Origin: a virus
Reading direction: 5' to 3' (one strand)
IMG/VR virus record: IMGVR_UViG_3300006119_000036
Coordinates: 1 to 29,729 of that record
DNA: 29,729 nucleotides
The notes under the pieces were generated by a model that was not told the origin of the DNA, searched no databases, and worked only from the letters and a program-made list of their open reading frames with translations. How positions within the stretch are numbered: position 1 is the first letter of the stretch; the number at the start of each line of letters is the position of its first letter. The position numbers were made by a program, and so were the translations under genes. Shown here piece after piece: positions 171 to 5,533 of this stretch.

Positions 171-198
171 TTGATTTTAGGTAATTTTGTGTTATAAT
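171..198 (+). promoter_or_regulatory. Early sigma70-type promoter of the 208-2318 operon
   Basis: TTGATT at 171-176, a 16-base spacer, then TATAAT at 193-198. The ATG of the amidotransferase follows after 9 bases, so the mRNA would have a leader of only a few bases. A second TATAAT at 204-209 overlaps the ATG and may be chance. Confidence 0.7.
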
Positions 199-207
199 AA
201 CCGTATA

Positions 208-870
208 ATGTGCGGAATATACGGAGCATTTAATCCTAGTAAGTTTGAAGTACTAGATCAAGCTAATAAAGTTAGAGGCAACTTTGCTTCTGGTGTTTAT
301 TACTGTGATGGTGTAGATTATGATGTGCAGAAGACGGAAGGCAGCTTTGACTGGAATAAAGTCAAATTACCTAAAGGCTTCATTTATTTAGGCCATAATC
401 AAGCACCCACTTCTAGTGAAAGAAAGTGGAAAATGCATAACTGCCACCCTTTTATAAGAGATAATTGGATAGTGGCTCACAATGGAGTGCTAACAAACTT
501 TAAACAATTAAAGGAAAACTACTTACCAGCCCATGATAATCTAGTTGACTCAAGTATTATACCAGCTTTATTAACTCATTTTGAACATATGTTTGAGGAT
601 GCTAATACAACAGAGAAAGAACAAGACTTGATTTGCTATGTATTAGAGCTTTTACAAGGTACTTTTGGTTTATGGATTGTCAATACAAAGACATATAATG
701 TTTATATTGCAAGACAAGGCAGTACTTTATTCTTTGATAAAGATAGCTTTTCATCTGCAAAGGGTGAAGGGTTTGAAGAACTAAAAGAAGGCATTTTGTA
801 TAAGTTTGGTAAAAAAGGTACAAAGCCCGTTGACGCATTTAAAGTAAAATCACCGTTTTTAGAATTATGA
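208..870 (+). CDS. Class II (Ntn-type) glutamine amidotransferase domain protein
   Basis: A stand-alone glutaminase domain of 220 residues, of the type that releases ammonia from glutamine at the N-terminus of GlmS, PurF and AsnB. The start is ATG at 208, not the longer frame from 187, because the mature family enzyme needs Cys directly after the initiator Met; the protein begins MCGIYGAFN. Other family marks are GHNQAPT (62-68, the GHxR-like loop, with Gln instead of Arg) and AHNGVL (90-95, oxyanion/substrate loop). There is no synthetase or isomerase domain, so the ammonia acceptor is unknown. It heads an early operon and shares an ATGA overlap with the GNAT gene. Partners could be the neighbouring transferases or a protein outside the window. 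Fold call is firm; pathway is open. Confidence 0.88.
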   Translation: MCGIYGAFNPSKFEVLDQANKVRGNFASGVYYCDGVDYDVQKTEGSFDWNKVKLPKGFIYLGHNQAPTSSERKWKMHNCHPFIRDNWIVAHNGVLTNFKQLKENYLPAHDNLVDSSIIPALLTHFEHMFEDANTTEKEQDLICYVLELLQGTFGLWIVNTKTYNVYIARQGSTLFFDKDSFSSAKGEGFEELKEGILYKFGKKGTKPVDAFKVKSPFLEL

Positions 871-1340
871 TAAAATATTTACAACCAACTACAGTTCATG
901 AAAAAATGGACTTGATGAAATTTGTTTATGATAACACTGACTCATTTATACTTAACACTTTTGGGTATGTTTGGGAAAGTAGACTGTGGTGGGTTACTCA
1001 ACCTATCCAGGTTTATATGGTAGGGGACATTATTGCTGGGTTGCATGCATTTTCAGTCAATACAAAAGCACCTGGTACGTTGAAGACATACTACATTGTA
1101 ACGGGTAAAGCTTTTAGAAAGCAAGGCATAGCTAAAAAGCTTACACTTAAAGCATTGAAAGACTATAAAGATAAGTGTGACAACTACTTTGTCAATACTG
1201 AACAAAATAGTGATGGTGTGCATTTCTATAATAGCTTATTTGACCATCAGTACTACTTAAGAGCAAATGAATTTGGCACGTTTGATTTAAATTTTGAAGA
1301 GTCAATTGAAAGTATTTTAAAAAATGAAAAGACAATTTGA
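867..1340 (+). CDS. GNAT-family N-acyltransferase
   Basis: 157 residues. The acyl-CoA-binding motif A appears as RKQGIAKKL (84-92) after a beta strand (TYYIVTG), and the following helix-strand pair ends in NSDGVHFYNSLF (114-125), typical of the GNAT C-terminal half. The fold predicts transfer of an acyl group from acyl-CoA to an amine; the substrate cannot be read from sequence. The start overlaps the amidotransferase stop (ATGA at 867-870), with no Shine-Dalgarno sequence, which implies translational coupling. The end overlaps the next gene by 17 bases. Its place between an ammonia-producing domain and a glycosyltransferase is compatible with sugar or base modification, but that is inference. 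Confidence 0.78.
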   Translation: MIKYLQPTTVHEKMDLMKFVYDNTDSFILNTFGYVWESRLWWVTQPIQVYMVGDIIAGLHAFSVNTKAPGTLKTYYIVTGKAFRKQGIAKKLTLKALKDYKDKCDNYFVNTEQNSDGVHFYNSLFDHQYYLRANEFGTFDLNFEESIESILKNEKTI

Positions 1341-1638
1341 TACAGGAGCACAAAGAGATACAGATATTGGTAAACCAAGAATGAGTTTGGTACCAACTCA
1401 GGAATTTGTACGTCTTATGGACCATTACCGCAAGGGGGGAGAAAAGTACGGGTTTGATAATTGGAAACATGGCATGACTTCTTCCGTTTTTTATGACAGT
1501 GCACAGCGTCATTTACTAAAATGGTGGATGGGTGAAAAGGATGAAGACCATTTAGCTGCAGTGTTGTGGAACGTGATGGGTGCAATGTGGACAGAACAAA
1601 ATAAGCCTGAACTTGATGACAGGGAAAAATACAAATGA
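1324..1638 (+). CDS. dATP/dGTP diphosphohydrolase-like all-alpha NTP pyrophosphatase (DUF5664 type)
   Basis: 104 residues. The pattern GGEKYGFDNWKHG (38-50), then SAQRHLLKWWMGE (59-71) and DHLAAVLWNV (75-84) matches the family annotated in phages as dATP/dGTP diphosphohydrolase N-terminal or DUF5664, an all-alpha fold related to MazG that uses acidic and His residues to bind metal and a nucleotide triphosphate. Likely role: trimming the host or phage dNTP pool. Relatives occur beside PurZ in phages with 2-aminoadenine DNA, but no purZ is visible here, so a Z-genome is not supported by this window. The preceding stretch ttttaaaaa has no Shine-Dalgarno; the gene is read through from the GNAT gene and ends in an ATGA overlap with the glycosyltransferase. 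Confidence 0.72.
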   Translation: MKRQFDTGAQRDTDIGKPRMSLVPTQEFVRLMDHYRKGGEKYGFDNWKHGMTSSVFYDSAQRHLLKWWMGEKDEDHLAAVLWNVMGAMWTEQNKPELDDREKYK

Positions 1639-2318
1639 AAAAAATTAAACTTGGAGTAGTGTCACAGAAAAAAACTTTTAAGGAAACTTTCCTTTATAAG
1701 TCACAAGCAGTAAAAGAGGATGATATTATTTTTGTAGGAGAGAATAAAGAAGCTCTTACAAAGGTATATAATGCAATGCTTAAACAGTGCAGAAATGAAA
1801 AGGTAGATATTTTGGTACTGGTTCATGATGATGTTTATATAAATTGTGCAGAGTTCCTACAAAAAATTGAAAAATGTGCTGAAAAATACACGGTTTTTGG
1901 TGTAGCGGGCACGTGTTCCTTAACGGTGAAAGAGCCTGCTTTATGGCATTTAATGGGAACTCGTGAGTCTTTAAGAGGGTGCGTAGCTCATGGACCTAAT
2001 GAGGAAAACTATAGCTACACGTCATTTGGTTCCGTTAATCAGCAGGTACTAATGATTGATGGCGTGTTTATGGGCATTAATTTGAACAAACTTCCTATTA
2101 ATATTGCATTTGATGAGAACATTCCAAGCAAGTTCCATTACTATGACCTGGTGTTTTCCTTTGATTGTAGCCTGGCTAAACAAAAAGTAGGCGTGGTTGA
2201 CATACCAATCATACATAACTCACCAGGTTTGAGAGAGCAAAGTAAAGAATGGTTAGATGGACAGGCTTATTTCTTAAAAAAGTACGAGAAATACAAAAAT
2301 AAGACCTTGACTGTATAA
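1635..2318 (+). CDS. Glycosyltransferase, StrF-like (family 2 type)
   Basis: 227 residues resembling the Glyco_tranf_2_5/StrF domain. Signs are the strand-plus-metal motif LVLVHDDVYI (61-69) that acts as the DxD site, the AGTCS loop (91-95), QQVLMIDGVFMGIN (136-149) and the C-terminal FDEN..FHYYDLVFSFDCSLA (159-181) followed by His194 in HNSPG. The family transfers a sugar from a nucleotide donor; acceptor unknown. In T4-like phages such enzymes modify DNA bases, virion proteins or host glycans, and the sequence does not decide between these. It is the last gene of the early cassette, starting on ATGA at 1635-1638 with a weak AGGG upstream, and the gp41 promoter begins inside its last codons. 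Confidence 0.75.
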   Translation: MKKIKLGVVSQKKTFKETFLYKSQAVKEDDIIFVGENKEALTKVYNAMLKQCRNEKVDILVLVHDDVYINCAEFLQKIEKCAEKYTVFGVAGTCSLTVKEPALWHLMGTRESLRGCVAHGPNEENYSYTSFGSVNQQVLMIDGVFMGINLNKLPINIAFDENIPSKFHYYDLVFSFDCSLAKQKVGVVDIPIIHNSPGLREQSKEWLDGQAYFLKKYEKYKNKTLTV

Positions 2319-2341: not shown

Positions 2342-3670
2342 ATGGAATTAAAACTCAATCTAGATGAGTACGAAAACGTAATTGTCTATAAATCTTTAAC
2401 TGATGAGAAGTATCTCACTAGTATTATAGATCATATTAAGCCAAATTACTTCAAAGATAAGAATATTAAGACGATTTTTGAAGTGATTAAGGCTTTTTAC
2501 GTTAAGCACAATACTATTCCAACAGTTACTGAGTTAAAAACGTATATAAACTCAGATGAGACAAGAGATGCGTTCAAAACTGTACTGAGAAACTTTACAA
2601 ACATAGATAAAAACCTAAATGAAGATGAATTAACCATAAGCACTGAAAGGTACATTAAAGAAAGAGCAATTTATAACACGATGTTAGAGGTTGCTGAAGA
2701 TGTTGGTGCTGGGAAGATAGATACAGCGTTCATTTTAGATAAATTTGAGAAGAGTTGCGGTATAAACCTTAAAAGAGATATTGGTTTAGACCTTTTCAAT
2801 GATATTGACGTTGTGATTGATGACTTAACCACTGAGCATCCTGTTATTCCATCGGGTTGGCGTTGGTTAGACAATAAATTAGACGGTGGGTTCTTACAAA
2901 ACGGTAGAGCATTGTATATATTTGCAGGTGAAACTAATGTAGGTAAGAGTATCTTCTTAGGTAACATAGCTAATAACATTGCTAAACAGGGTAAAACGGT
3001 TTTAATCGTATCATTAGAAATGAGCGAGTTAATTTATGCAAAAAGATTATCATCTAACATAACTAAGATACCTTTACGTACGTTAAAAACAGAAACCGTA
3101 ACGTTGAAACAGCAAATTGATGAGATTGCTAAGGGTAATCCTAACTGTAAGATATTAATTAAGGAGTTTCCTCCTAGTACGGTAACTCCCCACGAAGTAC
3201 AAAGCTTTATTAAGAACATTCAAAGCAAAGGCATTAAGATTGATGCAATTGTACTAGATTATGTTAACCTTTTAAAGAGTACTGTTGGTAATAATAGTTA
3301 CGAACGTATAAAATATGCAACAGAACAGGTAAGAGCTATGAGTTATGTGTTTAGTTGCCCTATTATTACAGCTACTCAGTTAAATAGACAGGGCTTTGAC
3401 GTAAAGAACCCTGGACTTGAAACAATATCTGAAAGTTATGGCTTGGCTGCAACGGCAGACGTTATTGTTAGTATATTTCAAGACGAAGAAGACAGAGAAT
3501 TAGGCTGTGTTAAGCTGGGTATGATGAAGAATCGTTTCGGTGAGAACCATGGCACTACTATTATGAGGTTAGATTACCATACTTTAACAGTAAGTGAGGA
3601 TGACTCCTTAATGAACCAAGGTGATCAAAGTAATATAACTAAAACACTCACAATGTTTAGTAATAGTTGA
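2342..3670 (+). CDS. 41: Replicative DNA helicase, T4 gp41-like (DnaB family)
   Basis: 442 residues, close to T4 gp41 (about 475). RecA-type ATPase motifs are clear: Walker A GETNVGKS (196-203), the DnaB H1a segment VSLEMSE (223-229), Walker B DAIVLDYVNLL (301-311) and the sensor-like TATQLNRQ (343-350). The N-terminal 150 residues correspond to the helical collar domain. It unwinds DNA at the fork as a hexamer and works with the gp61 primase encoded at 8106. It has its own promoter, whose -10 box ends 6 bases before the ATG, so the message is probably leaderless. Starts with MELKLNLDEYE and shows no truncation. Confidence 0.93.
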   Translation: MELKLNLDEYENVIVYKSLTDEKYLTSIIDHIKPNYFKDKNIKTIFEVIKAFYVKHNTIPTVTELKTYINSDETRDAFKTVLRNFTNIDKNLNEDELTISTERYIKERAIYNTMLEVAEDVGAGKIDTAFILDKFEKSCGINLKRDIGLDLFNDIDVVIDDLTTEHPVIPSGWRWLDNKLDGGFLQNGRALYIFAGETNVGKSIFLGNIANNIAKQGKTVLIVSLEMSELIYAKRLSSNITKIPLRTLKTETVTLKQQIDEIAKGNPNCKILIKEFPPSTVTPHEVQSFIKNIQSKGIKIDAIVLDYVNLLKSTVGNNSYERIKYATEQVRAMSYVFSCPIITATQLNRQGFDVKNPGLETISESYGLAATADVIVSIFQDEEDRELGCVKLGMMKNRFGENHGTTIMRLDYHTLTVSEDDSLMNQGDQSNITKTLTMFSNS

Positions 3671-4023: not shown

Positions 4024-4674
4024 GTGACTGAAAAAGAAAAGTACATTTACAATTGTTACCTTGAGACGTCGCGTAAACTCAACAACCAGCCGTTCAGGTA
4101 CAGGAAAAATTTTGACTCCTTTGAAGAAAAGGAAGAATATCCTTATATTGTTAAGTTAGCACAATTTTTTAATAGGTTTCCAAACATAAACATTAAAGAC
4201 TTTTTTGAAGCACCTTTCTTTGTTTACGATGATAAGCATGTTGAGGTGAAATTTTATACTTCTCAAAAAGCTATCAAAGCTTATACTATATATGAGAGTA
4301 AGTTTTTAGTTGACACACCAGATCATCCACAGACTCTAGTTAAAATAAAAGATAGTTTTGTGTTTATTAGAGATTACTGTAACGAGAAACAAATTAAAGT
4401 AAAAAACTACGTCAACTATCAGCCAAAAGATAGCCAGTGGCATGAATTCATGATGCATTTAAAAAATAGAAACATTATAATATATTGTTTATTTGCATTT
4501 CCTGGGTTTGAAAAGATAGTACAAAGTTATGATAGTGATTTAAAGAGAGAAGTATTTGGCGACACATTTGGTAATTTAGGTTTTTATAGGGCTAAGTATT
4601 TTAGCAGCACAAAAGCAAAAAAATTATGCATTTTAATGTATAATAAGTTGACATCTGAAAACAATAACGTATAA
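4024..4674 (+). CDS. Conserved-looking protein upstream of gp32 (helicase-loader position)
   Basis: 216 residues starting on GTG, chosen because the TATAAT box ends exactly 6 bases upstream, as for gp41 and gp45. The N-terminal YNCYLETSRKLNNQPFRYRK block is rich in basic and aromatic residues, the middle has a FYTSQKAIKAYTIYE segment, and the C-terminal half is aromatic (IIIYCLFAFPGFEKIV; FGNLGFYRAKYFSS). The size and the place just before gp32 match T4 gp59 (217 residues, helicase loader), but I see no residue pattern that proves homology. Treat as unknown, probably a DNA-binding replication accessory. The gp32 promoter lies inside its 3' end. Confidence 0.7.
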   Translation: MTEKEKYIYNCYLETSRKLNNQPFRYRKNFDSFEEKEEYPYIVKLAQFFNRFPNINIKDFFEAPFFVYDDKHVEVKFYTSQKAIKAYTIYESKFLVDTPDHPQTLVKIKDSFVFIRDYCNEKQIKVKNYVNYQPKDSQWHEFMMHLKNRNIIIYCLFAFPGFEKIVQSYDSDLKREVFGDTFGNLGFYRAKYFSSTKAKKLCILMYNKLTSENNNV

Positions 4675-4675
4675 T
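4648..4675 (+). promoter_or_regulatory. Consensus sigma70-type promoter of gp32
   Basis: Perfect TTGACA at 4648-4653, 16-base spacer, perfect TATAAT at 4670-4675. It lies within the last codons of the 4024 gene. The ATG at 4688 follows after 12 bases, giving a leader of about five bases. This is the closest match to consensus in the window, fitting the high demand for gp32. Confidence 0.85.
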
Positions 4676-4687
4676 ATAGACAATTTT

Positions 4688-5533
4688 ATGACAAACATGA
4701 TTAGTAACTCATTATTCCAAAGTATTAAAGGTGCATTAGCACAAGATAACAATAGTAACGGGGTTGGCAATATTCTTAAGACTGAAGTAGGTAATACCTA
4801 TACAGTAAGATTGTTACCCTTTTCAAAAGATCCTAAGAAAACATTTTTCCATTATTTTCAGCATGGCTGGACTAGTTTTGCAACTGGCCAGTATGTTGGC
4901 TCGTTAAGTTTACAAACGTTTGGTGAGCGTGATCCGATCGCTGAAGAACGTTTTCGTGTACTTCGTACTGGTACAGATGCTGAAAAAGAGAAGATCAAGG
5001 CAATTGGTAGAGCAGAAAAGTGGCTGGTCAATGTTTATGTCGTAAATGATCCAGTCAATGCTGAAAATAATGGTCAAGTTAAGATCTTACGGTATGGTAA
5101 GCAATTGCAAAAGATTATTCTCGATGCAATTGAGGGTGAAGATGCAGATGATTTGGGTGCACGTATCTTTGACTTAGGACCTAATGGTGTTAACTTAAAG
5201 ATTAAGGTAGAAAAGCAAGGTGATTATCCAAGTTACGTCTCATCAAAGTTTTCAATGCCAACAGCTATTGCAGATCTAGATGATACTAAGGCTAGTAAGA
5301 TATATGAAAGTGTATTTGAACTAGATAAAGTATTTCCTGCTAAGTCCTACGACGAACTTAAGGCAATGTTAAATGAACATTATTATTGCACTGTAGTTAA
5401 GGATGAAGTTGATGTAATTGATAACAACCAACCTGAAGTTGTAACTAAAAAGCCAACTCCAGCCCCTGCTAAAGCAGATACTAATGATAGTGATATTGAT
5501 AGCTTGTTAAAAGAACTTGATGCAACTAGCTAA
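4688..5533 (+). CDS. 32: Single-stranded DNA-binding protein, T4 gp32-like
   Basis: 281 residues. The OB-fold core is recognisable from TYTVRLLPFSKDPKKTFFHYF and QHGWTSFATGQYVG, a block shared by gp32 proteins of marine T4-like phages. The C-terminus ends in an acidic tail (DSDIDSLLKELDATS) as in T4, where the tail recruits replication proteins, preceded by a Pro/Ala/Lys linker. T4 gp32 coordinates zinc through a His/Cys set; no such Cys cluster is present here, so the zinc ribbon seems lost. An alternative start is the ATG at 4697 (MISNSLF), which may be the T4-like start. The TAATG overlap with the next gene suggests coupling. Confidence 0.9.
   Translation: MTNMISNSLFQSIKGALAQDNNSNGVGNILKTEVGNTYTVRLLPFSKDPKKTFFHYFQHGWTSFATGQYVGSLSLQTFGERDPIAEERFRVLRTGTDAEKEKIKAIGRAEKWLVNVYVVNDPVNAENNGQVKILRYGKQLQKIILDAIEGEDADDLGARIFDLGPNGVNLKIKVEKQGDYPSYVSSKFSMPTAIADLDDTKASKIYESVFELDKVFPAKSYDELKAMLNEHYYCTVVKDEVDVIDNNQPEVVTKKPTPAPAKADTNDSDIDSLLKELDATS

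Follow-up and report, generated by a model that had tools for sequence, protein, structure and literature searches.

A four-gene unit of an uncultured T4-like phage as a probable arm of 7-deazaguanine DNA modification with an exchangeable acyltransferase

The window, by which we mean the whole 29.7 kb virus fragment analysed here, carries replication and tail genes of T4-like type together with a compact cassette of four overlapping genes. A nucleotide search of the window against phage records matched nothing. The cassette and its surroundings comprise the following features:

171-198, + strand: sigma-70-like promoter, TTGATT-16-TATAAT with TG before the -10 box; 9 nt lie between its end and the amidotransferase ATG
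208-870, + strand: stand-alone class II glutamine amidotransferase of the Ntn type (open reading frame call; GATase_6, 9e-6, Pfam)
400-402, + strand: codon for Gln65 of the amidotransferase, within a GHNQAPT motif common to KVP40-type QueC-adjacent amidotransferases
867-1340, + strand: GNAT acetyltransferase (Acetyltransf_1, PF00583, 3e-5, above the cut-off)
1324-1638, + strand: diphosphohydrolase, a single-domain dATP/dGTP diphosphohydrolase-N (dGTP_diPhyd_N, PF18909, 1e-22)
1635-2318, + strand: GT-A glycosyltransferase with an HDD motif (Glyco_tranf_2_5, PF13712, 2e-14)
2307-2335, + strand: helicase promoter, TTGACT-17-TATAAT, the next good promoter after that at 171-198
2342-3670, + strand: DnaB-like (T4 gp41-type) helicase, the conserved downstream neighbour of the cassette

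Successive cassette genes overlap by 4, 17, and 4 nt, and the promoter at 2307-2335 marks the end of the unit. The amidotransferase starts at the ATG at 208—the TTG at 187 is merely the start of the longest reading frame—and its product begins MCG, such that the cysteine becomes residue 1. In most of the dereplicated relatives, which belong to a clade collected by a profile scan of IMG/VR, the promoter keeps its position upstream of the amidotransferase, with the -10 box a few bases 5' of the start codon. Reading frames, Pfam matches, and this conserved promoter confirm what an earlier, sequence-only reading had claimed, namely four genuine, overlapping genes behind one promoter; the early expression that it assigned to them is plausible. 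That reading had also pointed to related phages as the place to look for the combination, and there all four genes stand together in the same order in 36 of 80 loci (21 of the 52 that are left when loci are dereplicated at 95%). Genes scattered independently with no co-occurrence, the pattern that would have spoken against it, are not what these relatives show. Judged from these loci, the association appears to exceed chance. Three strong sigma-70-like promoters in the window (171-208, 2307-2342, and 4648-4688) stop 6-12 nt 5' of start codons, distances which suggest that the phage transcripts are leaderless or nearly so.

The amidotransferase had been described as a lone enzyme in need of an ammonia acceptor, which is accurate within the window but not in the clade: a QueC gene lies 0-3 kb upstream of it in all 62 contigs that extend more than 1.8 kb in that direction. 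QueC typically follows UvsX, with one opposite-strand gene between QueC and the amidotransferase, and in three cases (L100, L107, and G038) the two genes abut directly. This is the closest arrangement among the relatives' loci, where they are separate genes throughout and no Gat-QueC fusion occurs. A search against a defence-system library returned a QueC relative as the sole match. In the amidotransferase alignment, the class II hallmarks (C2, H91 N92 G93, and D114) are invariant, and the nearest relatives outside the window clade are unannotated proteins encoded after QueC in KVP40, nt-1, pf16, and Vibrio phage 2.275, with which the window clade forms a single clade (support 99/96). Within the alignment, the motif GHxQAPT is confined to the window clade, a few members of which depart from it, and the KVP40 type. 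Both groups have Gln (Gln65 in the window protein) in place of the arginine that binds the glutamine carboxylate (Arg73 of GlmS), a residue that is kept at the equivalent site in GlmS, PurF, AsnB, and other phage amidotransferases.

We propose that the amidotransferase is a putative split partner of QueC; ammonia from glutamine most likely passes from the one to the other, and the predicted acceptor is QueC or its product. A route through an amidoligase or cell-wall peptides, raised by matches in RIO-1, Lyrsu01, and Leptolyngbya, was rejected, as those proteins keep the arginine and fall outside the window clade. Unannotated class II amidotransferases lie next to or overlapping QueC at L020:5001-5609 (KVP40.0125), L137:12099-12707 (nt-1 VPFG_00173), and L021:5001-5639 (pf16_77). 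At L008:689-1347 the amidotransferase frame is broken near its end, by a frameshift or a sequencing error.

No que or dpdA genes occur within the 29.7 kb window. In long relatives, QueE was found, together with QueD (13/20 records), FolE (3/20), and QueF (21/27); in several partial contigs, FolE, QueD, or the transglycosylase was not found. A Pfam search of the relatives for TGT gave no match, and DpdA was therefore traced through its synteny with QueF. The transglycosylase gene lies two places before QueF, with a kinase between them. Its product shares 52% identity with the protein annotated as DNA guanine transglycosylase in Flavobacterium phage immuto and 45% with one from a Campylobacter phage. 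A PDB profile search with this protein gave no significant sequence match to TGT. For an AlphaFold model of the L178 protein (pLDDT 92.9), every top PDB match was either a tRNA-guanine transglycosylase or the DNA preQ0 insertase DpdA (7ui4), at a TM of about 0.65. From this model and from its relatedness to annotated DpdA, the relatives' transglycosylase appears to be a DpdA with a TGT fold.

The order DpdA-(acyltransferase)-kinase-QueF recurs in more than 60 loci, and assignment of the clade to phage 7-deazaguanine DNA modification is, on gene content, well supported. Base hypermodification, one of the outcomes offered by the sequence-only reading, was thus the right direction, with its support coming from beyond the window, from the QueC gene upstream and from QueD, QueE, QueF, and the transglycosylase in relatives. 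The kinase between DpdA and QueF resembles AAA_28/dNK proteins (L133:8249-8824, L123:2327-2890, and L147:8828-9370), and a gene annotated as thymidylate kinase comes after DpdA in Campylobacter phage CPt10. Several neighbourhoods contain further genes recognised by eye: a curli export/subunit-like set (CsgF-, CsgG-, and curlin-repeat-like) with a CHASE2-like protein beside DpdA (L232:6174-11925, L235:6016-11794, and similar regions), spermidine synthase- and AdoMet decarboxylase-like genes adjoining QueE in a 185 kb relative (L122:6405-7960), and proteins like the DUF1549/DUF1501 types of Planctomycetes and Verrucomicrobia (L121:4866-8087, record G016), a possible hint of the host.

The decisive evidence is the gene slot that follows the amidotransferase. 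Across 80 loci it holds a GNAT in 55, a formyltransferase in 16, both in none, and neither in 9. The GNAT alignment shows an RxxGxA motif; the formyltransferase belongs to Formyl_trans_N (PF00551), and its profile matches GAR transformylases at 1e-12. Either enzyme starts 4 nt inside the amidotransferase gene (50/55 GNATs and 16/16 formyltransferases). Where loci without an acyltransferase in the slot could be traced on a long record, the gene is found beside DpdA or QueF, as a GNAT in G016 and G034 and as a formyltransferase in G014, G036, and G038; in G035, a formyltransferase precedes kinase-QueF. The converse pattern holds in the genomes viewed: with a GNAT beside the amidotransferase, DpdA-kinase-QueF has no acyltransferase between its genes. 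Six DpdA-only regions have a formyltransferase before kinase-QueF, about 7 kb off, and we discarded the apparent absence of an acyltransferase from such loci as an artefact of a short view. A genome-wide search found exactly one acyltransferase in each of 12 long records (7 GNAT and 5 formyltransferase), the G034 match being counted by construction, since the GNAT profile contains that protein.

Among loci with the slot, the helicase tree places replacement by the formyltransferase as a single event; the amidotransferase tree implies eight slot changes, at least five of them forced by well-supported branches. The disagreement between the two trees makes gene exchange likely and leaves the number of independent exchanges uncertain. 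Gene identities, linkage, and the exchangeability of the acyltransferase can thus be read from the sequences, and the properties expected of a dPreQ1 acyltransferase—linkage to DpdA and QueF, and one copy per genome—are both found. N-acylation, which had been among the suggested chemistries, fits this exchange, and we propose the window GNAT as a candidate N-acetyltransferase of preQ1, acting on the base or on DNA.

The other two cassette genes are less closely bound to this pattern. Entire clades are without the diphosphohydrolase, which is accessory, and the dNTP pool trimming named in the sequence-only reading is thus not a required step; in pf16, the amidotransferase is followed by a different, pyrophosphatase-like gene of PRA-PH/MazG type. 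The glycosyltransferase adjoins the amidotransferase in nearly all loci, even where no acyltransferase or diphosphohydrolase is present there, and since its position holds even in loci whose acyltransferase has another place, it has no fixed link to acylation. Its GT-A fold is nearest to majastridin and to protein/collagen glycosyltransferases (collagen galactosyltransferases); the best matches of the fold search were other GT-A enzymes and not known DNA glycosyltransferases. Several relatives carry an apparent fusion of a sugar cytidylyltransferase with a GHMP kinase (the kinase part recognised by eye) between the diphosphohydrolase and the glycosyltransferase, as at L069:4307-5416, a hint that the glycosyltransferase may have a nucleotide sugar made specifically for it.

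A possible second piece of the window's own genome came from the DpdA scan. The contigs closest to the window, L002 (sample 3300021139) and L003 (sample 3300032753), encode proteins 99-100% identical to those of the window, and the scan recovered L178 (sample 3300032753) and L179 (sample 3300021137), mutually 98.9% identical, from the same sample or the neighbouring series (33000211xx). Both carry DpdA-kinase-QueF with no acyltransferase, matching the prediction for genomes with a GNAT in the slot. Judged from this co-occurrence, an L178-type contig fits as a second piece of the window's phage.

Taken together, we consider it probable on these sequence grounds that the cassette supplies one arm of a pathway for 7-deazaguanine modification of DNA, in which the GNAT acetylates the aminomethyl nitrogen of preQ1. 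The chemistry, the role of the amidotransferase in supplying QueC with ammonia, acylation on the free base as against DNA, and the rest of the pathway in the window's genome are what we infer. In the proposed scheme, QueD, QueE, and QueC would make preQ0, with FolE provided by phage or host and the amidotransferase working with QueC, most likely as its source of ammonia from glutamine. QueF would reduce preQ0 to preQ1, a primary amine, and the TGT-fold DpdA would swap guanine in phage DNA for the modified base. The window GNAT would acetylate the aminomethyl nitrogen, and in sister phages the GAR-transformylase-like enzyme would formylate the same atom; the predicted product in the window's phage is 2'-deoxy-7-(acetylaminomethyl)-7-deazaguanosine. 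The diphosphohydrolase would be an optional nucleotide-pool helper, and the glycosyltransferase would share a transcript with the acyltransferase. Acylation of the amine is the simplest reading because the acyltransferase accompanies QueF and DpdA and moves between two pathway operons. The sequence-only reading is partly supported overall: its direction was right and its detail wrong, with the base and the logic of the pathway lying outside the window.

Several known systems resemble parts of this scheme. Campylobacter phages of the CP220/CPt10 type have dADG DNA (PMC6884629). They encode the related transglycosylase (45%) followed by a kinase resembling that of the window relatives but, unlike these, no QueF or acyltransferase in the region viewed. 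Immuto carries QueD-QueE-FolE-DpdA-formyltransferase-kinase-QueF in one run, in the same order as the window relatives, and has the closest DpdA and formyltransferase (42%, annotated as phosphoribosylglycinamide formyltransferase) to theirs; it differs from the window in that no amidotransferase was detected and that the group would be formyl, not acetyl. Cui et al. (NAR, 2023) reportedly described a dPreQ1 formyltransferase, DpdN, which forms fdPreQ1 by formylation of dPreQ1 in phage DNA; a like formylation is predicted for the formyltransferase phages of the clade, while the window GNAT would give acetyl. The closest amidotransferase relatives, those of Schizotequatrovirus (KVP40), nt-1, pf16, and Vibrio 2.275, sit in clusters with adjacent QueC and FolE. 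As in the window relatives, QueF is present in KVP40, pf16, and 2.275; the differences are that no GNAT or formyltransferase was seen in these clusters and that KVP40 and nt-1 carry the DpdA2 type. Phage 9g has a fused Gat-QueC and DpdA, a deoxyarchaeosine pathway that inserts dG+ (Hutinet et al. 2019, PMC6884629). It shares with the window clade a class II amidotransferase associated with QueC, preQ0 genes, and transglycosylase insertion into DNA; in the window clade, however, the amidotransferase is encoded separately and its glutamine pocket has Gln in place of Arg, QueF and an acyltransferase are present, and DpdA is of a different type.

The 9g precedent raises the main rival for the role of the amidotransferase, that it turns preQ0 into archaeosine (G+) as the fused enzyme does, leaving dG+, possibly N-acylated, in the DNA in place of acyl-preQ1. 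We regard this as a tentative alternative, weakened by the presence of QueF, which in 21/27 long records would compete for preQ0. The Gat domain of 9g, moreover, retains the arginine (GNARAEPT) and falls outside the window clade. Phage nt-1, whose QueC and amidotransferase are likewise two separate genes and whose listed region has no QueF, bears on both sides, as its DNA contains some dG+ but mainly dPreQ0; the KVP40-type amidotransferase could bear on that dG+. Rather unlikely, though compatible with the acyl-preQ1 pathway, is that the glycosyltransferase acts on the modified base in DNA to yield a sugar-bearing hypermodified guanine. T4 relatives do glycosylate bases, with unrelated enzymes, and the gene is kept next to the amidotransferase in nearly all loci; on the other hand, its best folds are not DNA glucosyltransferases, and no such gene lies beside DpdA-formyltransferase-QueF in immuto.

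The latter observation also tells against a third possibility, which we judge quite improbable: that the GNAT or formyltransferase acylates an amino sugar which the glycosyltransferase moves to a virion or host-surface glycan, with the amidotransferase a neighbour by coincidence. Amino-sugar pathways often exchange N-acetyl for N-formyl, the weaker matches of the formyltransferase profile include sugar formyltransferases, and the glycosyltransferase shares its operon with the acyltransferase; the cytidylyltransferase fusion inserted before it in some relatives and the dTDP-sugar genes seen by eye in G005 point the same way. In the more basal phages and immuto, however, the acyltransferase lies between the transglycosylase and kinase-QueF, away from the glycosyltransferase, which still adjoins the amidotransferase in loci whose acyltransferase has another position. 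Chance grouping of four unrelated auxiliary genes in a modular replication region is very improbable and largely refuted by co-occurrence. GNATs, diphosphohydrolases, and glycosyltransferases are each common in phages, and whole clades lack the diphosphohydrolase, but order, overlaps, and promoter are conserved over 50 dereplicated loci, and the alternation of GNAT and formyltransferase is strict.

For the acyl-preQ1 pathway at large, we lean slightly toward the view that a large uncultured clade of T4-like phages caps preQ1 in its DNA with formyl or acetyl through non-homologous enzymes in one slot, that the acetylated form is a new natural DNA base, and that a split amidotransferase makes QueC glutamine-fed. 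We know of no earlier description of acetylated preQ1 in DNA. The virion nucleosides of GNAT and formyltransferase phages are predicted to differ in mass by 14 Da. If true, a new base would be added to the set known in DNA, and a function would be assigned to the widespread unannotated amidotransferase of KVP40-type phages. The outermost group of a DNA modification would then be swapped by exchanging whole enzymes, as would be expected if host restriction tracks that group.
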